Source: a virus
Direction: 5' to 3' (one strand)
IMG/VR virus record: IMGVR_UViG_3300031753_000030
Coordinates: 1 to 31,777 of that record
DNA: 31,777 bases
Of this stretch, positions 9,874-24,490 are shown one piece after another. The notes under the pieces were generated by a model that ran no database searches, was not told where the DNA came from, and worked only from the letters and a program-made list of their open reading frames with translations. Both the position numbers and the translations under genes were made by a program. The stretch's first letter is position 1; each line of letters begins with the position of its first letter.

Positions 9874-11994
9874 ATGGACGCCTCTATTCCTCCTAGCGAA
9901 TTCGAGTTCCGTGACGCGAAGATCGAGCCTGGGAACACGCATCATGCGATTCTCGATCGCGACGCGGGATTCGTTGAGCAGGTTGACGAGACGTCTAAGC
10001 CGAAGGATACGCCAGCGATTAAGCGGAAGGAGCTACCTCCGCCGATCTTGGATATCAGTGAGGAACAGAAGAGCCGGCTCCTTATCTGGCTCGACCAGTG
10101 GCTGAATGACCTCGACTCTGCTCAGCAGGACTTACAAAGCGCTTGGGCCGATCAGGAGAAAGCCTACCGCGCAGTCACTCCTGACTCTGTCCAGTTTGAG
10201 CCCTTCCGCGGCGCCTCGAGGGAGGTCATCCCTGTCGGCGCGATGGCAGTGGATCCTATCCACGCCAGGCTGGACATTGGTATCTTCAAGCAAGACCCAG
10301 TGTTCACTTGGAAAGGGCTTCGCAAGGACATCCTCGAGCTGATGCCGTCTGTGCAGGCCTTCGTAGACAAGTACCAGAAGAACTACCTCGAGCTTCGTCG
10401 CGTTGCGTCTCCGCGCATTCTCGAGTGCGTCAAACTCGGTACTATGGCCTTTAAGACCGTCTACGACCGTGACGAGTACAAGGTCTTCCGCTACAACGAC
10501 GACTACTCAGAGGTCGTCGAAGTCCCGCAGGTTCGCTTTGCTGGCCCGCGAGTCTTCGGCATCCACCTAGGTGATCTCCTCTTCCCGCCGTTCTATGAGA
10601 CACCAGACGAGTGCCCGATCATCTTCGAGCGTCAGCGGACGACTTACGAAGCGCTCAAGATTCTCGAAGCCGCAGGTAAGATCACTAACGTCGAATCCGT
10701 GCGAAGCCAGCAGACTATTGGCGTTCGCACTGCTGTCGAGCAAGCCCGTGAGGATGCTAACAAGCACGCGCTTCGCACTACCTTTGCCAACGAGATCACT
10801 GTCTACGAGGCGTGGTTTGACTACGCGATCTACCCAGGCAAGCCGCCTTCGCACCTCGTCGCTACGTACCACAAGGACACTCGGACCCTTCTCCAGCTCC
10901 GGCTGAACTGGTACTTCCATCAGCGGAAGCCCTACACGATCGTGCCGTATACGATCGCTAGTGATACCATGCTCGGCTTGGGCATCATGGAGATGGTCAA
11001 GTCCCTTCAAGACGCGATCACGAAGTGGCACCGTATGGCGCAGGACAATGCGTATATCGCTAACATACGCATGTTCATCGCGAAGAAGAACTCTGGCATC
11101 GAGCAGGTGCCGCGTCTCTACGCTGGGAGAGTGTTCTTTGTCGACGAGCCTACAAAAGATTTCATACCGTTCGCTAGCGGGGATATCTACCCTTCCACGC
11201 TCGCCGAACGGCAGAACCTTTTCGGCATGGTCGAGAAGCGGACGGGTGTTAGTGATTATCTGCAAGGACGGGAGTCTCCGATCATTGGCACTCGAGCCAC
11301 CGCTACGAGTACCTTGGCTCTTATCAAAGAGGGCACCCAGCGTGTTGAGGAGGTCTTAGAGAATCTCCGCCAGGGCTTTGCTGACATCATGGAGTTCTGC
11401 ATTAGCATCTGGATTCAGTTCGGCACTGGCGGGATCGAGGACCTCATCTTCGGCGATGACAAGATCGCTACAGACGTTAAGCAGTTCTTCAAGATGGTCT
11501 CTCAGGAGAACATCAACGGAGCGTTTGCGGTTGACTTGACCGTTACCGACGCTTCGACCAATCGCCAAGCTCAGCAGCAGATGCAGTTGTCGCTCATTCA
11601 GGTGATGATGCAGTACCTTGAGAAAGTGCTCGAAGCGGGACAAGCGGGTATCGTAGCGTCTAAGCAGGGCATGCCGGAGTATACCGAGATGGTGAAGGAA
11701 GTCATGTCCACGGCCCGCAAGCTGTTCCGCGACCTGATTGCGAAGTACGATATTCGTAATCCAGAGGACTACTTACCAGACTTGGAGAAATATCTCAATG
11801 CCCACGCTCAGCCCGGAGCTGCCCCAGGACAAGGCAACGGCGGAGACGCTCAGGGACGAAATGGTGGACCTGGAGGGCAACAGGGCCTTCCAGTTGGTAC
11901 AGGCCCGGCTCGAGGCCCTACTCCAGCAAAGCCAGCGACTCCTGGAAGCGGAGGAGGATCACCCCAACTTGCGGAACTTGCAAGGACGGGTTAA
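9874..11994 (+). CDS. Portal protein
   Basis: 706 aa, a size typical of podovirus portals. ATG 9874 follows the previous stop by 2 nt. The portal is the dodecameric ring through which DNA enters and leaves the head. Features: 'FRGASREVIPVGAMAVDPIHARLDIG' near residues 110-135, a central wing domain, then 'PYTIVPYTIASDTMLGLGIMEMVKSLQDAI', a stem-like helical segment common in large portals. 'ERQNLFGMVEKRTGVSDYLQGRES' is followed by a long helical crown (QRVEEVLENLRQGFADIMEF). The final 65 residues are Gly/Pro/Ala-rich and apparently disordered; they overlap another reading frame. Confidence 0.88.
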   Translation: MDASIPPSEFEFRDAKIEPGNTHHAILDRDAGFVEQVDETSKPKDTPAIKRKELPPPILDISEEQKSRLLIWLDQWLNDLDSAQQDLQSAWADQEKAYRAVTPDSVQFEPFRGASREVIPVGAMAVDPIHARLDIGIFKQDPVFTWKGLRKDILELMPSVQAFVDKYQKNYLELRRVASPRILECVKLGTMAFKTVYDRDEYKVFRYNDDYSEVVEVPQVRFAGPRVFGIHLGDLLFPPFYETPDECPIIFERQRTTYEALKILEAAGKITNVESVRSQQTIGVRTAVEQAREDANKHALRTTFANEITVYEAWFDYAIYPGKPPSHLVATYHKDTRTLLQLRLNWYFHQRKPYTIVPYTIASDTMLGLGIMEMVKSLQDAITKWHRMAQDNAYIANIRMFIAKKNSGIEQVPRLYAGRVFFVDEPTKDFIPFASGDIYPSTLAERQNLFGMVEKRTGVSDYLQGRESPIIGTRATATSTLALIKEGTQRVEEVLENLRQGFADIMEFCISIWIQFGTGGIEDLIFGDDKIATDVKQFFKMVSQENINGAFAVDLTVTDASTNRQAQQQMQLSLIQVMMQYLEKVLEAGQAGIVASKQGMPEYTEMVKEVMSTARKLFRDLIAKYDIRNPEDYLPDLEKYLNAHAQPGAAPGQGNGGDAQGRNGGPGGQQGLPVGTGPARGPTPAKPATPGSGGGSPQLAELARTG

Positions 11995-13907: not shown

Positions 13908-14801
13908 ATGGTCATGGTTCGTGGCGCCTTTTCGAACTTATTGGCGCCTGGCTTTAGGAAAATCGTCTTCGAGACGTACAAGGAACGTCCGACCGAGGGC
14001 GATCGCTGGATCAACATGAATAAGAGCCAACGGGCGTATGAGGAAGACTTCCCCATCGCCGGTTTCGGCACACTGTTGAGCAAGGCGGAAGGTCAGCCGG
14101 TTACGTTCCAGGACGCGATTCAGGGAGTGCTGGTCCGCTATCTCTGGACCACGTTCGGCCTCGGATTCAGAATCACCGAGGAGATGATGGAGGACGATCT
14201 GTACGGCATCATGGGAGCGAAGATGTCGAAGGCTCTGGGTCGCTCCGCAAGGAACAACTTCGAGATCGTGGCGCACGCAGTGCTGAACAACGCGTTCAAC
14301 ACAGCGATCAACGGTTTCGAGGCAGGCGTGTCGCTGATCTCGACGAGCCACACGACGCTGCGTGGCCTGTCAGCGACTAATCGCCCTGTGACGGACACCG
14401 GCATCAGCTTGCCCGCAGTTCAGGCTGCCATCGAGGCGTTCCATGCCTTGAACGACGAGTCTGGCCTGCCCGTCATGTTCATTCCGAAGTACGTGCTCTA
14501 CAACCCTGGCGACCACTGGATCGTCAATCAGATCCTGAAATCGGAGAAGCTGCCAGGCAGCAACCAGAACGACATCAACCAGTTGTCCCGTGAAGGGTTG
14601 ACGCCGCTGCTGTCGCACTATCTCACGGACCCGTTGTCGTGGTATATCATCGCAGACAACCATGATCTCAATTACTTTGACCGTCGCGCACCTCGTTTAA
14701 CGAATACAGACGATTTCGAGACAGGTGACGCTAAGTTCAAGTTGACTCGTCGAAACGGGTCAGGCTTCGGAGACTGGCGCGGTGTCTACGGCTCGCCATA
14801 G
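13908..14801 (+). CDS. Major capsid protein
   Basis: 297 aa, ATG 13908 with AAAGGAG upstream. Gene order (portal, scaffold, decoration, then this) and sequence fit an HK97-fold coat protein of the Mu gpT-like type. Signs are the N-terminal arm 'PGFRKIVFETYKERPTEGDR', the conserved 'FGTLLSKAEGQPVTFQDAIQ' and 'GLGFRITEEMMEDDLYGIMG', a spine helix region around residues 105-140, and a C-terminal 'YIIADNHDLNYFDRRAPRLT', where coat proteins usually carry the P-domain strand. Forms the icosahedral shell. Confidence 0.85.
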   Translation: MVMVRGAFSNLLAPGFRKIVFETYKERPTEGDRWINMNKSQRAYEEDFPIAGFGTLLSKAEGQPVTFQDAIQGVLVRYLWTTFGLGFRITEEMMEDDLYGIMGAKMSKALGRSARNNFEIVAHAVLNNAFNTAINGFEAGVSLISTSHTTLRGLSATNRPVTDTGISLPAVQAAIEAFHALNDESGLPVMFIPKYVLYNPGDHWIVNQILKSEKLPGSNQNDINQLSREGLTPLLSHYLTDPLSWYIIADNHDLNYFDRRAPRLTNTDDFETGDAKFKLTRRNGSGFGDWRGVYGSP

Positions 14802-16967: not shown

Positions 16968-17725
16968 TCGTTGCCTCGTCGTCTCGTCATGGTGGATTAA
17001 AGACACCGCCTGCCGGTGGAGGCTGCGTCGGTAACGTCAACGATATCGGCTTCCCGAATGTGCCAGGGACGTGGACAACAGTCATTAGCGACTACGACTG
17101 CTCTGCCTTTGGCGCAGGTGGGTGGAGCACGAACGGAGGGACGCTACAGGCGATCACAAGCGACGCTTGCGCGCCGAAGGCTCCTCAGAAGAACTGGCAA
17201 TACACCTTCGACCAGGGCGACACGGGCCTGTGCGGCTCGGGGCCCGCGCTCCAGTACATCAGCGGTCTAAACATTCAAAAGCTCTATGCGGGCTGCTACG
17301 TCAAGTTCTCCAATCCCTTCGACTTCTTCGGCAACAACATCAACTTCCCGAACAACGGGGAGGTGCACCTCCATGCGGTCCTGACGTCGGGTGGCGGCTC
17401 GATCGTCCAGGACATCTACTCGGACCACGTCGAGGTCGTCAACGAGGACGATCCGGGCGGGACAACAAACTACGACAGCAGCACCGGTACGTACTCGATC
17501 GGCGTCTACCATCTCCTCGAGACCATCTATGACATGGTCGGGGCGACGGTGACGGTCTATGTCGATGGCGTGCAGGTTCTCAGCGCGAGTACGAGTTTCA
17601 ACAGCGACCACATCACGGAGTTCCACTGGAGCAACACCTGGGGCGGCTGCACGCTCGGACAGGGTGTCGCGCCGGCCTTCACCTGCTACACCTGGTGCAA
17701 CCATATCCACTTGGTGAGCCCGTGA
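16964..17725 (+). CDS. Lectin/polysaccharide-lyase-like jelly-roll protein, 253 aa
   Basis: GTG 16964 in a GTGA overlap. After a short Gly/Pro head, residues about 60-250 look like a concanavalin-type jelly roll: 'KLYAGCYVKFSNPFDFFG', 'NNGEVHLHAVLTS', 'GATVTVYVDGVQVL', 'DHITEFHWSNTWGGC'. That pattern occurs in glycan-binding LamG-like domains and heparin-lyase-type folds. It has several Cys. The stretch from about 17160 to 17700 uses noticeably more G/C-ending codons than its neighbours, which suggests recent acquisition. It may bind or cut host surface glycan; activity not provable here. Confidence 0.6.
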   Translation: MIVASSSRHGGLKTPPAGGGCVGNVNDIGFPNVPGTWTTVISDYDCSAFGAGGWSTNGGTLQAITSDACAPKAPQKNWQYTFDQGDTGLCGSGPALQYISGLNIQKLYAGCYVKFSNPFDFFGNNINFPNNGEVHLHAVLTSGGGSIVQDIYSDHVEVVNEDDPGGTTNYDSSTGTYSIGVYHLLETIYDMVGATVTVYVDGVQVLSASTSFNSDHITEFHWSNTWGGCTLGQGVAPAFTCYTWCNHIHLVSP

Positions 17726-19488
17726 GGTCGGTCTGGGTTGCAGAGCAGAATCTACCTGTATCCTCTCGCGGGCACGGGTTCCGCTGGCCGAAGCTCAAGG
17801 TAGGTTGCCGCCGCTCGAGACAGCATGCATGGCACGTGGTGCATTACAAGCTACGCTTGCCTATAGCTCCGATACCGATCCTCTCGTGGTGGGGGCCGGT
17901 GTTGTCTGTAGTGCTACTGCACATGCTGTCTGAGCAACCAGAGATGTTAGCAGACGATCATTTCGGTGCGCTGCTTACTGATCCGTACCGTAGTCGCATC
18001 TGGTGGAAGGGTCAGTGGCGTACGCTCCAAGGCGGCGTGAATACTCCGACAATGGTGCAGCACATTGCGGGGCCGATCTACAGTCCTGTCGCTATTCCAG
18101 ACATGACGCTTCGGCTGCCGAACCTAACGCTACTGAACAATCTAGTCGTTGTGAGCGTCACAGTCGGATCGACTACGACTACGTTCACAATGAGCGATAA
18201 CAAGGGATCGACGTACACCGCAGGCCCTACGGCCAATGACGCGAGCGCTCCTCAGAAGGCGTCAATGTTCTACGCGCCGGGCTGTCAAGCAGGAATCGCG
18301 ACGATTAAGGCTACGTTAAGCGCGAGTACGGTTAGCCTTGCAATGATGGCGACGGAGTTCTATAACGTACAGACGACGACGCCGAGTGATGGGTCGAACA
18401 CTGCAGTCGTGGCGAGCGGCGGCACGGCGGCTTTTGACGCTGGAAGCGTGACTACGGGAACTAGCGGCGACCTCGGATACATCTACGCGATTGACGACGG
18501 CGGTTTCGAGCCGTGGACATGCGCTCATCCTACTCAGGGAACTGGCGGCACGCTGCTTTCTGCGTACGGCGAGTCGGCACAGACCGGAGGCATGGCTGCT
18601 GGGTTCACTGTACAGACGGCAAGCGGTGCGATCGACTTGAGCATGGTGATTACGACTACAGGCTCGGTGCCTTCATACATCGCGCTGGTGCAATGGTTCA
18701 AGAGTGCAGCGGCGGGGACTGCTCCTTCTATTACGCCACGGATTCAGCGAGTTCGGATGATGTCTATTCCTGACAACACTACAGCGATCCCAAAGGCGCA
18801 GATTCCCTGTGGAGACAACCTCGTAGTTGTGCTATCGCATAGCTCACCGAATGATATGACGCTTGTGAGCGACAGTAATAGCAATACGTACACGAGTGCG
18901 GCTGTGGATCACTCTACAGGCGGGGCGAACTTCATCTACTCGCACATCTGGTACGCAGCGAATGCTACGACAGGCGATACACTATCGCTCTCCGTCACGT
19001 GGCCTGCGAGCACTATTGGAATTACGTTTAGCGTTCTCGACATAACGGGCGCTTCTACAAGTCCGTTTGTCGTAGCAGCGGCGACGCACGGCGATCAGAC
19101 GACTGTAAACGGCAACCCGAATATTCTGCCAGGGACGACAGTAGCTCCGACAGCGGCAGGGCAGTTAGCAGTTGGCGTCGGTGACCAGGATACTGCGACA
19201 TGCACGGGAGTGACGACAGGAGTGTTCTTACTCCCTACATGGTCTACGCAGAACGAGGGTGGAACTCCTAGCGGAGCAGGCGACTTTTTCACTGACGATG
19301 CTATGCTTGCTAGCTACTACACTCCTAGCGGATCGTCGTTCACCTTTAGCTGGATTTTCTCGGCACAGGCTCAGGTATCAGGCGTCGGAAACTGGTGTAC
19401 GGCAGTTGCGGTATTTCAGGGAGCAGCTGGCGGTGGCGCGCCTCAGCCGGTAGTGAGGTCGCAGGCGGTTCAGCGGTCAGTCACATAA
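17722..19488 (+). CDS. Large beta-rich fibre-like protein with duplicated domain, 588 aa
   Basis: GTG 17722 in a GTGA overlap with the jelly-roll gene; a longer frame from 17695 starts inside it. The N-terminal part is basic, with a hydrophobic stretch (LPIAPIPILSWWGPVLSVVL), perhaps an anchor. Two similar beta domains of about 230 residues follow. Each has 'NNLVVVSVTVGS'/'DNLVVVLSHSSP', 'SDNKGSTYT'/'SDSNSNTYT', 'MFYAPGCQAG'/'IWYAANATTG' and 'TEFYNV'/'LDITGA'. Related sequence recurs at the start of the 20437 gene. Likely a tail-fibre or appendage protein; no enzyme motif seen. Confidence 0.7.
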   Translation: MRSVWVAEQNLPVSSRGHGFRWPKLKVGCRRSRQHAWHVVHYKLRLPIAPIPILSWWGPVLSVVLLHMLSEQPEMLADDHFGALLTDPYRSRIWWKGQWRTLQGGVNTPTMVQHIAGPIYSPVAIPDMTLRLPNLTLLNNLVVVSVTVGSTTTTFTMSDNKGSTYTAGPTANDASAPQKASMFYAPGCQAGIATIKATLSASTVSLAMMATEFYNVQTTTPSDGSNTAVVASGGTAAFDAGSVTTGTSGDLGYIYAIDDGGFEPWTCAHPTQGTGGTLLSAYGESAQTGGMAAGFTVQTASGAIDLSMVITTTGSVPSYIALVQWFKSAAAGTAPSITPRIQRVRMMSIPDNTTAIPKAQIPCGDNLVVVLSHSSPNDMTLVSDSNSNTYTSAAVDHSTGGANFIYSHIWYAANATTGDTLSLSVTWPASTIGITFSVLDITGASTSPFVVAAATHGDQTTVNGNPNILPGTTVAPTAAGQLAVGVGDQDTATCTGVTTGVFLLPTWSTQNEGGTPSGAGDFFTDDAMLASYYTPSGSSFTFSWIFSAQAQVSGVGNWCTAVAVFQGAAGGGAPQPVVRSQAVQRSVT

Positions 19489-20436: not shown

Positions 20437-22338
20437 GTGGCGATAGCGTTTAGAGCGGCATCGGCGCAGGTCTTGATGGATGCAGGGACGACACTCACCC
20501 CTGCTAATCCTGCCGGTACGCTCCCGACGGATATACTGATCGCATGCTTCGAGTATGACGGTGGGACAGGCATTACGATTACTCCGCCGACTGGCTGGAC
20601 GCTGATCGCAAAGTCAGACAACGGTGCGACCTGTGGAACAGCAGCGTACTGGGCCTTAGGCAACGTAGCGAGTAACGCCTTCGGCTTCACGAGCACTACA
20701 GCTATCGGCTGGATTCTTGGCTACTCCGGAGTTGATCCTAACACTCCGATGGACGTGGCAGCGACGAACAGTGTCAATACATCGTCGGTGACCGGAACGT
20801 GCCCTTCGATCACGACCAAGACGCCTGGCGCAGTCTGTGTCTGTATCTGCGGCTTCCAGGCGCAGAGCGCGACGTTTAGTGGACAGACGTTCACTGAACG
20901 AATGAACGGCGCGGAAGGTGGCACGAGTGATCCGCAGTCTATGGATAGCGGGGACTTCCTCGCTGTAGCGGCTGGCGCAACGGCGGCTAAGACGACGACT
21001 TCGTCAGTCGCAGCGCTGAACAACGGCATCACTGCCGCGCTTCGCCCGTTGCTCGCTGGTGTATCGCAGATCATTAGCGTCGCTCGGACGACCGCACGAC
21101 GAGCGCATCAAGCGGTAGGGATGATCGTATTCCTACACGCTCCGCGAGTCGTTGTTCCGCCGCCTACGGCTGGCATCCCACCTGCTACGCGAGGCAGGCT
21201 ATTCTCGCGAGTGTTGCAGCTTCGCGGTGGTATCGTGCCGCCGGCTGCGCCTGCGAACAGTCGCATACACATCGTGCAGGCCGCTCAGCCGCATCGGCCA
21301 GGCACGCATGTTATCTACATACATGGCGCACCGTCTACCGTTCCACAGCGACTGCCGACTCAGCCAGTTGTCGTCCAGGTACGCAATCGTCCTGCGCCTA
21401 CGCATGTCATCGCGCTACGCGGCGGTCAGTTTACGCCAGCGCCGAAGATGCATGTCGTCCTGGCTCGCAACAAGCCGCAGCCGACGCATGTCGTCTATGT
21501 TCATGGCGCGAAGTCGACTGTTCCGCAGAAGCTACCTGCACAGCCGTATGTGGTACAGGCTCGGATTCGTCCGCCTACGACGCGTGTAGTTTACATACAG
21601 GGAGCCCCGGCTCCGCCGGCTGCGCCACCTGCGGTAGCAGGACCGTCGCCAGCGACTCGTGGACGGTTCTTCTCGCGCGTTGTGTTCCTGCGGGGCAGCC
21701 CGCTTGTGGCACCGGCAGTTCCACCACCTCCGCAGCAGATACATGTCGTGCAGGCTCGAATCCGCCCGCCTGCTACGCACGTTATCTCGCAACACAATCC
21801 TGGCGGGCTAATAGCGCCGAGCGCGCCGCAGTACACGGCGGTCCTTGTCGAGCGCTCAAGGCAGCATGTAAAGACGAGCATCGTACAGCTTCGCGGTGCG
21901 GAGTCTGTTGTACCCGCAAAGCTCGCGCCACAAGTGCATGTCGTGCAGGTCCAGCACCGCCCAGCGTACGGCAAGTTCGTCTTTATACGCAACGCGGCAG
22001 TGCCGCCTCCGCCACCTCAGCCGCCAACGGTGCAGGTGCATGTGGTGCAGGTGGCTCATCGTCCGGCGAAGACGAACGTCATCTATGTGCATGGTGCGCC
22101 TTCGACGGTACCACTGCGCCTCGCGCCGCAGATTACGATCGTTCAGCAGCGGATACGCCCGGCGAAGACACATGTCATCTCTATTGCCGGCCACGCGATA
22201 CCGCCAGTGGTCGCTGTGCGCTCACCAAACTGGGAAGCGACGAGCTCGACGTGTCCTGCGCCGGGGTTCACAGACGTGGCTCCGATTACGGTGCCGTTCA
22301 CTTCATGGGCACCCATAGACCCGAACTGCACCTGCTAG
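20437..22338 (+). CDS. Repeat-containing fibre-like protein, 633 aa
   Basis: GTG 20437, immediately after the previous TAA. Residues 1-205 are a beta domain ('ITPPTGWTLIAKSDNGATCG', 'FGFTSTTAIGWILGYSGVDP') related to the duplicated domain of the 17722 gene. Residues about 212-595 are about twelve degenerate repeats of roughly 30 residues with the theme 'HVVQxRxRPxxTHVIYxHGA' then 'PSTVPxxLPxQ'. The tail carries one PNWEA motif and ends 'VPFTSWAPIDPNCTC', echoing the end of the 23119 gene. It is very Pro/Val/Arg/His-rich and likely an elongated fibre or a surface-binding module. I know no described family with this repeat. Confidence 0.75.
   Translation: MAIAFRAASAQVLMDAGTTLTPANPAGTLPTDILIACFEYDGGTGITITPPTGWTLIAKSDNGATCGTAAYWALGNVASNAFGFTSTTAIGWILGYSGVDPNTPMDVAATNSVNTSSVTGTCPSITTKTPGAVCVCICGFQAQSATFSGQTFTERMNGAEGGTSDPQSMDSGDFLAVAAGATAAKTTTSSVAALNNGITAALRPLLAGVSQIISVARTTARRAHQAVGMIVFLHAPRVVVPPPTAGIPPATRGRLFSRVLQLRGGIVPPAAPANSRIHIVQAAQPHRPGTHVIYIHGAPSTVPQRLPTQPVVVQVRNRPAPTHVIALRGGQFTPAPKMHVVLARNKPQPTHVVYVHGAKSTVPQKLPAQPYVVQARIRPPTTRVVYIQGAPAPPAAPPAVAGPSPATRGRFFSRVVFLRGSPLVAPAVPPPPQQIHVVQARIRPPATHVISQHNPGGLIAPSAPQYTAVLVERSRQHVKTSIVQLRGAESVVPAKLAPQVHVVQVQHRPAYGKFVFIRNAAVPPPPPQPPTVQVHVVQVAHRPAKTNVIYVHGAPSTVPLRLAPQITIVQQRIRPAKTHVISIAGHAIPPVVAVRSPNWEATSSTCPAPGFTDVAPITVPFTSWAPIDPNCTC
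21070..22219 (+). repeat. About 12 degenerate tandem protein repeats (THVIYxHGAPSTVP type)
   Basis: The coding repeats are about 90 nt each. Two units (ATRGRLFSRVLQLRGG near 21184 and ATRGRFFSRVVFLRGS near 21652) are closely similar and five units apart, so a five-unit block appears to have been duplicated. Confidence 0.7.
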
Positions 22339-22348
22339 GGAGGACATA

Positions 22349-23119
22349 GTGTCAATCACAAATGCTGAGTTAGTATTCCTCGCGGCTGTGAACAGGCCGA
22401 ATGACGATGTGAGCACAGGCGGCGGAGCTATTGATCTCACATGCGGCTGCGGAGCGATCAATCATCTAACCGCTGCGGCTGTGATTAGCTTCGTGTCGAC
22501 GAACAGTGGCGATACGATGAACATCACGATCAGCGGCAGGACCGCTAGTGGCGTCTATACCACTGAGACGCTCGCTATGAACGGAACGACTGAGGTTAGC
22601 TCTGTCAACACCTATCAGCGCATCCTCGACGTTACGTTCGCGTCGCTGCCAGCAGGCGTGATCAGTGTATACCAAGGTACGGGCACTGGCACGCTGATCG
22701 GCGGGTTCAACAGCGCTGGGCATCCTTACTACAAGGACACCGCGCTGTTCAAGAAATCAGCGTCGAGCTCGACCGCGGTGACGAGGTACGACAAGGTGTT
22801 CTTCAAGAACACTGATGCATCGCTAACGCTAACAGGCGCAACAGTAACGCTGGTCGCTGACCCTTCGGGACGCATCAGCATCGGCCTCGAGACTGCGTTA
22901 AACGACGTGAACACGATCACGAACCGACTGACGGCGCCAGCAGGCATCACGTTTCAGGGAGTTGGCACTGCGATCAACGTGCCGAATAGTCAGAACTTGA
23001 CGAACGGCAGCTACATCGGCATCTGGGTCAGGCAAGCGCTACTCGCGAATGACGGAGCGTTTGACTACGGAGTCTCCGGCTCGCAGTTGGAGATTCAACT
23101 AAGCGGTAATACGACCTGA
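22349..23119 (+). CDS. Beta-rich structural protein, 256 aa
   Basis: GTG 22349 with AGGGAGG upstream. It reads MSITNAELVFLAAVNRPNDD, Thr/Ser/Gly/Asn-rich strands (TMNITISGRTASGVYTTETL), then 'HPYYKDTALFKKSASSSTAV' and 'RYDKVFFKNTDASLTLTGAT', ending in 'GSYIGIWVRQALLANDGAFD'. The 'yyyKvFfKNt' and 'iGiwvrqalladd' segments are seen in phage structural proteins of the same gene neighbourhood. Likely an appendage or tail structural component. Confidence 0.65.
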   Translation: MSITNAELVFLAAVNRPNDDVSTGGGAIDLTCGCGAINHLTAAAVISFVSTNSGDTMNITISGRTASGVYTTETLAMNGTTEVSSVNTYQRILDVTFASLPAGVISVYQGTGTGTLIGGFNSAGHPYYKDTALFKKSASSSTAVTRYDKVFFKNTDASLTLTGATVTLVADPSGRISIGLETALNDVNTITNRLTAPAGITFQGVGTAINVPNSQNLTNGSYIGIWVRQALLANDGAFDYGVSGSQLEIQLSGNTT

Positions 23120-23778
23120 TGTCAGTAGTAACGGCGAATAGGTTCCCTAATTGGGAAGCGCTAGGCGGGATATTCGCACCTCGCTTTCCTAACTGGGAGG
23201 CTTTAGGAGGCGTCGCTGCGCCTAGATTCCCTGACTGGGAGGCGATAAGCCCTGTTTCGTCGCCGAGATACCCAAATTGGGAAGCGCTAATGGGCATTGC
23301 AGCGCCTCGGTATCCCAACTGGGAGGCTCTCGGAGGCATTTTTGCTCCGAGATATCCTAATTGGGAGGCATTAGGAGCGATTGCGGCGCCTAGATATCCG
23401 AATTGGGAGGCTTTAGGGCTTCTTAGCAGCGCAAGATTCCCTAACTGGGAAGCGGTATCTGCTCTCATTGCAAACAGGTTCCCGAACTGGGAGGCCTTAG
23501 CTATAGTTCCTGCTGCAAGGTTCCCAAATTGGGAGTCGCTATCGCAGCAGAACGTCGCTGCGGCGAGATATCCGAACTGGGAAGCGCTAGGACTGATTCA
23601 GGCGCCAAGATTTCCGAACTGGGAGTCGCTGACGTCGCTGATTCAGGCACCGCGCTTCCCGAACTGGGAGTCGCTAGGGCTAATCGTCATCCTAGCAGAG
23701 CCCAACTGGGAGTCTCAGCCAAAGGAGTTCTGCTTCTACGTAGCGATCATCGTGCCGTTCCAAGCGCCGTGCATGTAG
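23119..23778 (+). CDS. PNWEAL-repeat protein, 219 aa (novel repeat family)
   Basis: ATG 23119 overlaps the previous stop (TGATG). Almost the whole protein is 14 tandem units of about 14-16 residues such as RYPNWEALGGIFAP: [RE][F/Y]-P-N-W-E-[A/S]-L, then a small hydrophobic spacer ending Ala/Pro. Trp, Pro and Glu are invariant in every unit, and the Asn is Asp in only one. The last 20 residues break the pattern (EFCFYVAIIVPFQAPCM) and resemble the end of the 20437 gene. The units use different synonymous codons, so the repeat is kept at protein level. Probably a solenoid or fibrous virion protein, with the Trp array perhaps binding glycan or wrapping DNA; function unknown. Confidence 0.8.
   Translation: MSVVTANRFPNWEALGGIFAPRFPNWEALGGVAAPRFPDWEAISPVSSPRYPNWEALMGIAAPRYPNWEALGGIFAPRYPNWEALGAIAAPRYPNWEALGLLSSARFPNWEAVSALIANRFPNWEALAIVPAARFPNWESLSQQNVAAARYPNWEALGLIQAPRFPNWESLTSLIQAPRFPNWESLGLIVILAEPNWESQPKEFCFYVAIIVPFQAPCM
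23140..23717 (+). repeat. 14 tandem PNWEA coding repeats (about 42 nt unit)
   Basis: PNWEA is written in at least eight codon combinations (for example CCT AAT TGG GAA GCG against CCG AAC TGG GAG TCG). This indicates old duplication with purifying selection on the peptide. Confidence 0.85.
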
Positions 23779-23788
23779 AGGAGGCCGC

Positions 23789-24490
23789 GTGAATCTAAGC
23801 GAGTTTAGAAGTCGCTTGCGGATAAGGATCGGGAATCCGAGCACGACAGACGTGCCGGATACGCCGAATCTTGACCAGCACATTAACGACGCGGGGCAGG
23901 AGATCTTTGACAAGTACAAGTTCAAGCGGCGTAGAGCGAGAGCTCAGTTCACGACAGTAGTTGGGCAGGACAAGTATAGCGTTAGCCAGCTAACCGACGT
24001 GATCTTTAAGGCCTGGGATAGGACTAATGGCCGTGAGCTAACGTACGTCGGCACGAATGTTCTCGCAGAGCAGGACTACAACGCGAGCCCGAACAACTTG
24101 ATACAGAACGGTAAGCCGGATAAGTGGACGTACATTGAGTCGTACTTCCAGGTGCTACCGCCGCCAGATGGCGCGTACTGCATCGAGTTCGTGTATAAGG
24201 TGATCTACTCGGCGCTGACGCAGACATCAGATGTGCCAGTGATTCCGCTGTCGTGGCATCGAGGGATGGTGATTCTCGCATCGGCGCTCTACTACGAGGA
24301 CGAGGCTCAGGACAAAGCGAAAGCGACATATCACCACGACGCGTTCGATAAGTGGGTTGCTGACAAGCCTGTTGAGGAACACGAGCAGACCGAGGCCGTC
24401 GACTCAGCTGTTGAGATACCAACCTTGTCGCCAGACTTCGCAACGCTGCGTAAGCCTGACGGCATCTTTTGGGATATTCAAGAGCCATGA
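23789..24490 (+). CDS. Head-tail adaptor (connector) protein, putative
   Basis: 233 aa, GTG 23789 with GAGGAGG upstream. It reads MNLSEFRSRLRIRIGNPSTT, 'DVPDTPNLDQHINDAGQEIF', 'YKFKRRRARAQFTTVVGQDK', 'SYFQVLPPPDGAYCIEFVYK', 'PLSWHRGMVILASALYYEDE'. The pattern of an N-terminal helix pair with 'hiN.A..ei', a beta core, then 'w...lv..as.lyy.dea' matches phage adaptor proteins of the tail-tubular-A / P22 gp4-like kind, which join the portal to a short tail. It supports a podovirus-like particle. Confidence 0.7.
   Translation: MNLSEFRSRLRIRIGNPSTTDVPDTPNLDQHINDAGQEIFDKYKFKRRRARAQFTTVVGQDKYSVSQLTDVIFKAWDRTNGRELTYVGTNVLAEQDYNASPNNLIQNGKPDKWTYIESYFQVLPPPDGAYCIEFVYKVIYSALTQTSDVPVIPLSWHRGMVILASALYYEDEAQDKAKATYHHDAFDKWVADKPVEEHEQTEAVDSAVEIPTLSPDFATLRKPDGIFWDIQEP

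Follow-up and report, generated by a model that had tools for sequence, protein, structure and literature searches.

A 14-residue tandem-repeat protein with a recurrent partner gene as a candidate appendage scaffold of a short-tailed phage

What use does a phage have for a protein that consists of little more than one short peptide repeated in tandem? The question is raised by a gene in the 31,777-nucleotide stretch of viral DNA analysed here (the window; features in Table 1). Nearly the whole of its 219-residue product is made of 14-residue units, and the 14 tandem units that a first-pass annotation had read in this frame were recovered as 14 P[ND]WE[AS] motifs; 20,000 residue shuffles of the protein never produced more than one such motif. 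Trp, Pro and Glu, described there as fixed at a spacing of 14–16 residues, are each present in 14 of 14 units, as is A/S, while N, R and F/Y are kept in 13 units each and L in 11. The spacings between the 14 Trp residues are 14 (nine times), 16, 14, 15 and 14, and the one- and two-residue insertions behind the longer spacings sit in the variable half of the unit. Pro precedes Trp by two positions in every unit and a second Pro closes 8 of the 14. The proposed [RE][FY] start of the unit is valid as a consensus; it fails for the last unit, which begins A-E instead of R-[FY] and continues into the non-repeat tail QPKEFCFYVAIIVPFQAPCM. The protein ends about 20 residues past the last WES, and NWES followed by xxCF, with a Cys near the end, is common to this tail, to the related protein of contig L007 and to both related proteins of L101.

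Table 1. Positions of the genes and protein segments of the window referred to in the text.
Feature	Position	Strand	Basis or remark
SU10-type portal	9874..11994	+	PF23899, SU10_portal 2.4e-26
Major capsid protein	13908..14801	+	PF25209 1.5e-15
Upstream 633-aa protein	20437..22338	+	sequence; searches empty
Partner gene, family A6, 256 aa	22349..23119	+	stop overlaps repeat-gene start (TGATG)
Repeat protein, 219 aa, ATG start	23119..23778	+	ORF translation
14-unit array, residues 8-206, consensus R[FY]PNWEALGGIAAP	23140..23736	+	
C-terminal tail QPKEFCFYVAIIVPFQAPCM	23716..23775	+	
SU10-type adaptor (head-tail connector)	23789..24490	+	PF24175, SU10_adaptor 3.6e-18

Free variation of the codons and selection on the repeat peptide had also been claimed, and the nucleotide sequence bears this out. 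When units one to six apart were compared, identical residues (Met and Trp excluded) used the same codon in 35–44% of pairs, and a DNA repeat finder at its default score detected just 3.7 copies at 71% match in the repeat gene. Since the codons differ and the repeat finder picks up no more than a portion of the array, we conclude that the array is maintained at the peptide level and that selection acts on the peptide. For the twelve units of exactly 14 residues, mean NG86 values were 0.43 for dN and 1.59 for dS in the 22 of 66 pairs that could be computed, the other 44 being undefined and presumably saturated. The sole close copy found, in a phage (L002) that is 98.7–99.7% identical to the window in aligned stretches, shows no difference in the 660 nucleotides of the repeat gene and is thus uninformative on selection. 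Arrays of this kind do expand by recent duplication, as three adjoining units in L066 (4308-5891) are identical in DNA. A functionless array, a chance or neutral low-complexity DNA repeat, has nevertheless a practically negligible probability: the residues are kept though the codons differ, and the unit is found again in other viruses.

The position of the gene between structural proteins and the connector, as first annotated, was confirmed: portal and capsid genes lie upstream, and the SU10-type adaptor is encoded immediately downstream. The region in front of the adaptor varies among relatives. L006, whose adaptor is 72% identical, is without an array and encodes at this place a long protein interpreted as a pectate-lyase-like tailspike; in L018 the corresponding variable stretch encodes a protein that carries a PhoD-like phosphatase domain; and L007 (adaptor 62% identical) carries a divergent array of 167 aa directly upstream, ending NWESVKEFCFY. 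The 633-aa protein encoded further upstream in the window consists of a non-repeat N-terminal part, Pro-rich repeats of about 28–32 aa (by eye), one PNWEA and a Cys-containing C-terminal tail; it gave no match in Pfam, PHROG or NCBIfam searches. Pro-rich repeats of about 25–32 residues (by eye; in the window THVIYIHGAPSTVPQRLP...) were also seen in L007:5885-7576 and L018:14294-18535. The proteins of the window and L007 finish with WE[AS] motifs followed by a Cys-containing tail; that of L018 carries the PhoD-like domain. Elsewhere, between about 17023-19453 of the window and 4076-6335 of L002, two genes are replaced with the end of the second kept, which is likely to be a receptor-binding swap.

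No Pfam, NCBIfam or PHROG model fitted the repeat protein (PHROG: none at E up to 0.1), and tblastn against 50,697 phage records returned nothing. PRK08419, KRTDAP and MT-RNR1 scored far below their curated cut-offs, had no independently matched stretch and were rejected. The statement that no phage repeat with this unit had been described is therefore right in so far as the unit is absent from the three collections, but units of the form [W/Y/H/I]-E-[A/S]-L-x-x-[I/L/V] are also present in a further thirteen virus contigs. A profile (A5) was seeded with five of these, and the other eight score 34–95 bits with it. The highest control scores were 19.8 bits, for 1,999 ORFs of bacterial loci that had been selected by their tandem Trp patterns, and 20.8 bits, for 100 arrays with permuted columns; a Trp array of a different type, L046, reached 24.0 bits. 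A search of IMG/VR for three WE[AS] motifs gave 91 stretches, from which in-frame reading retained L047, L066 (with the same protein in L085), L081, L086, L101 and the phage of L007; KWESGATRGKANP arrays, poly-WEAA, L046/L058 and other low-complexity arrays were set aside by eye. L101 has two array genes, whose arrays end in NWESCKPICF and NWESEQAFCF, each followed by a tail.

Other routes to relatives were less productive. Adaptor-based searches led to three loci only, and the NWES..CF tail pattern to five stretches, two of them already known and three without a relative; a pattern scan of genome contigs contained no family member by eye among the matches listed. Genome loci selected for tandem Trp patterns gave 55 period-14 hits, a figure that this selection makes unfit as a control. 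With tblastn against named phages, L101, L260 and L261 matched nothing, L066 matched Aeromonas phage vB_C4 at 0.009 and L081 matched Aeromonas phage AVP3 at 1e-5, its other matches being at chance level. The open-licence literature searched held nothing relevant on a 14-residue phage repeat, on Trp tandem repeats of tail fibres or on the letters of the unit. The window protein itself has the period of 14, the Glu, the Leu at +2 and the aliphatic residue at +5, and its virus carries an A6 gene, as do many members of the family but not all (L086). A second A5 match in G004 (C1:11773-12303, L279; the virus of L245) reads through three stop codons and was excluded from the analysis; it may be a decayed copy or an artefact of the reading frame.

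The array is frequently accompanied by one protein of about 250 aa, A6, whose gene overlaps the array gene by stop and start in the window (Table 1) and in L007 (TAGTG). Searching with no profile other than A6 led to 19 loci, 12 of which have a period-14 ORF within the fetched stretch (27 ORF matches, which include several shadow frames of one array). Seven of the 12 belong to six viruses already known as array carriers; the other five are new array loci (L246, L249, L257, L260 and L261). Under the same period-14 test, none of 451 ORFs in 17 loci of capsid relatives was positive, and the nine of these control loci that were checked are all without A6. When whole records were searched with A5, an array of at least 34 bits was present in seven of ten A6-carrying records, those of L245 and L250 falling outside the fetched A6 flank; of the three records without an array, two are identical over their central 2 kb and the third is L016, a short contig that is also a seed row of A6. 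Loci L247 and L256 were left out of this search. Five capsid relatives, from 21 loci found, had neither array (0/5) nor A6 (0/5), and the record of L086, in which no A6 was found, contains an array (42 bits). Bacterial genomes contained A6 in 0 of 4, 2 of 289 (both weak) and 0 of 297 cases. Two side observations concern the surroundings of A6. A partial match (35 bits) in L284 (G245:C65, class of G027) adjoins a different 14-residue array (IKRNVQNTVTKTVT), which profile A5 did not report. A protein of 116–157 aa with a C-terminal CPxC, zinc-ribbon-like by eye, adjoins A6 in L007 (8356-8706), L245, L247, L260 and L262; none was seen beside the A6 gene of the window.

To describe what the units conserve, 208 chained units from 13 proteins were aligned on Glu/Asp, an anchor that is fixed by construction; a few of those at the ends of arrays are probably not genuine. 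Position −1 holds W in 108 units, Y in 20, I in 15, D in 14 and T in 13, position +1 A (86) or S (67), position +2 L (113) and position +5 I, L or V (142), and Pro or Asn stands two before Glu in 97. Position −1 is chiefly Ile, Thr or Asp in L261, L249 and L246. Trp is therefore favoured but not required in the wider family and is fixed in a subset only, so that its description as a fixed feature does not extend beyond such members. Hydrophobic residues peak three positions apart, at −1, +2 and +5 around Glu, and in all 13 proteins tested the helical moment was larger than the strand moment (in this set the proteins of L245 and L250 replace those of L257 and L086).

Units resemble each other most when they lie four apart (Stouffer Z 7.1; positive for 11 of the 13 proteins), and Z remains at 4.1 when both L101 proteins (L101a and L101b), L066 and L007 are removed. 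Neighbouring units (offset 1) gave Z 5.4, and all remaining offsets 2.3 or less. The superperiod is weak in the window array (z 1.2–1.3) and at z 0.7 or less in four other proteins, and an echo at offset eight is clear only in L101a. The repeating variant is an xDELLQGI-type unit in L101 and a Gly-containing unit in L047 and the later part of L081. As a tendency, a distinct variant at every fourth unit, hence a superperiod of 56 residues, can be seen in L101:7682-9220, L081:9659-11098, L047:1393-2424 and L007:9491-9994. Codon agreement at offset four is not raised in most proteins. In L007 (0.55, 22 pairs) it is higher there than at any of the other five offsets, and in L081 (0.53) this holds by a narrow margin, so that recent block duplication may lie behind the superperiod in those two. 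For the relatives that have it, the four-unit superperiod suggests an ordered structure.

Evidence on function comes from relatives. PHROG 6079, annotated as 'tail protein', matches three of them, L047 (7e-8), L066 (4e-12) and L081 (4e-20), and L086 reaches 0.0095. It gave no match for the large protein of L101 or for L007, none at E up to 0.01 for L246, L249, L257, L260 and L261, and none at E up to 0.1 for the window protein; the best stretches in the relatives cover about 46–171 of its 605 positions, the remainder of the profile being unmatched. In L086, four units stand upstream of a GDSL esterase in one chain (PF13472, 2.5e-11), and in L246 units follow such an esterase in the same chain (4.2e-7, slightly below Pfam's cut-off). 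GDSL-type esterases are common in phage spikes. The array of L081 lies downstream of a long ORF read by eye as a tape measure. The location of the gene, taken together with the PHROG 6079 and GDSL matches of relatives, points to a virion appendage. We consider it about an even chance (roughly 0.5), judging from sequence, that the repeat protein forms the extended scaffold of such an appendage, a tail or head fibre or a spike, in a short-tailed phage with SU10-type portal and adaptor.

In such a scaffold, each 14-residue unit would be one module, with hydrophobic residues (W/Y/I, L and I/L/V) at −1, +2 and +5 followed by a looser half of about seven residues, and the modules would stack one upon the next to form a slender, elongated body with, in several relatives, a higher-order repeat every four units. 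Array length would set the reach of the scaffold. The protein would be made together with its A6 partner of about 250 aa, which may attach to it, and the Cys-containing C-terminal tail might cap or anchor the assembly. We infer that the protein is present in the virion. Position before the adaptor, the tail-protein matches and the esterase domains also weigh against a disordered protein with an internal, assembly or early-infection role that forms no part of the mature virion surface. This alternative would agree with the low confidence of predicted structures, and virion evidence was found for no member of the family; we regard it as quite improbable.

Prediction of the full-length structure, proposed at the outset as a check, returned no confident fold. 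AlphaFold2 with the A5 alignment (seven sequences) gave a mean pLDDT of 30.8 and a pTM of 0.15, with short helices at WEAL. With alignment A7 the values were 37.9 and 0.32, with one strand per unit; A7 has 33 rows, the window protein and 32 of 50 phase-matched fragments, which overlap and come from eleven proteins and are thus not 33 independent sequences. The two models disagree, helices against strands, and neither supports a claim on the fold. The helical hydrophobic pattern of all 13 proteins also runs counter to the strand-type model. Foldseek with the A7 model found nothing in the PDB at E 0.001, and a BFVD match to an uncharacterised herpesvirus protein (3e-4) was dropped because the model is unreliable. 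Sequence searches of solved structures with A6 and A7 had best E values of 0.12 and 0.11, none being under 0.1.

Fourteen residues equal two heptads, and a trimeric coiled-coil shaft with W and L at positions a and d would account for the helical moments in 13 of 13 proteins and for the acidic relative in the virus of L245, which looks helical by eye. Such a shaft is nevertheless very unlikely. Pro stands in all 14 window units two before Trp, with a second Pro closing eight of them, and Pro or Asn at −2 from Glu in 97 of the 208 family units; one- and two-residue insertions break the heptads, and the window protein contains no unbroken run of heptads free of Pro.

The main competitor of the scaffold reading retains the virion and changes the architecture. 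By itself the chain would be extended or disordered, and every Trp-Glu-x-Leu would clip one partner subunit, perhaps A6 or trimeric fibres, so that partners are gathered at the tail or head. There is a precedent in phage SU10, where (PMC9509320) a fibre-dock loop of the nozzle protein presents Trp 839, 847 and 857 in pseudo-threefold arrangement, each contacts one chain of the trimeric short tail fibre, and the fibre clamps the segment before each dock Trp. The window phage, with its SU10-type portal and adaptor, would share with SU10 repeated Trp residues in a virion protein of an SU10-type tail. The SU10 dock differs in having three Trp 8–10 residues apart inside the nozzle protein, whereas the window has 14 Trp mostly 14 apart in a separate 219-aa gene, and no sequence relation is shown; the window protein is not a Trp loop of a nozzle protein. 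A conserved unit core beside a remainder that tolerates insertions, monomer predictions lacking confidence, and a partner gene overlapping by stop and start would all suit docking. The spacing of 14 instead of 8–10 does not, nor do chained unit counts of 9 to 32 (approximate), which in 10 of 13 proteins are not multiples of three, a four-unit superperiod suggestive of an ordered stack, or the Ile, Thr or Asp that mostly fills the Trp position in L261, L249 and L246. The superperiod thus favours ordered stacking, and the failed monomer predictions and the insertion-tolerant half favour docking. On balance we hold multi-site docking to be unlikely. More specifically, an array of near-identical Trp motifs, overlapping the gene of its ligand, A6 or a fibre, could multiply the three-Trp dock of SU10, which we judge rather improbable. 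If docking were true, a short-tailed phage could tune the number of bound appendages by gain or loss of 14-residue units.

Other proteins built from repeats offer further close comparisons. Triple beta-spirals have a period of about 15 residues; for comparison with these and with beta-solenoids, the window protein offers a period of 14 and one strand per unit in a low-confidence model (pLDDT 38). The adenovirus fibre shaft, a thin trimeric triple beta-spiral of 22 repeats (PMC8869412), is alike in its short tandem units and differs in period. Repeat-built virion proteins are thus already known; the unit, the partner and the superperiod are without description in the literature searched. What emerges is a family, as yet without a name, of modular repeat proteins of virion type that are encoded by uncultured phages, have a recurring partner gene and, in several members, show the four-unit superperiod. 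The small window protein allows one to ask how a 14-residue unit builds or decorates a phage appendage, and arrays of tunable length could serve as designed scaffolds.

Trp repeats of the NSxxWxSVYSTV type, also of 14 residues, occur in phage fibre proteins, and L046 presumably resembles them. They share with the window the period and one Trp per unit but have no E-A-L core, and the 24.0 bits of L046 with A5 are barely above the other controls; open-licence papers on the letters of this unit were not found. The tail protein of Aeromonas phage AVP3 (L242:1237-5622) likewise has a C-terminal 14-residue tandem array (APYGLQPGVIADLT), but no Glu-Ala-Leu core, and a link through A5 was rejected at 18 bits, within noise. 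A link of A5 to Stenotrophomonas phage S1 was also dismissed as noise (9.6 bits). Inspected by eye, protein gp21 of S1 has a segment with Trp residues about 14 apart, one of them as PWEG; it differs in having a C-terminal region, absent from the window protein, with an additional match to PHROG 1887 'tail protein'. It matches PHROG 6079 at 8.9e-172, and through this profile S1 is a possible distant relative.
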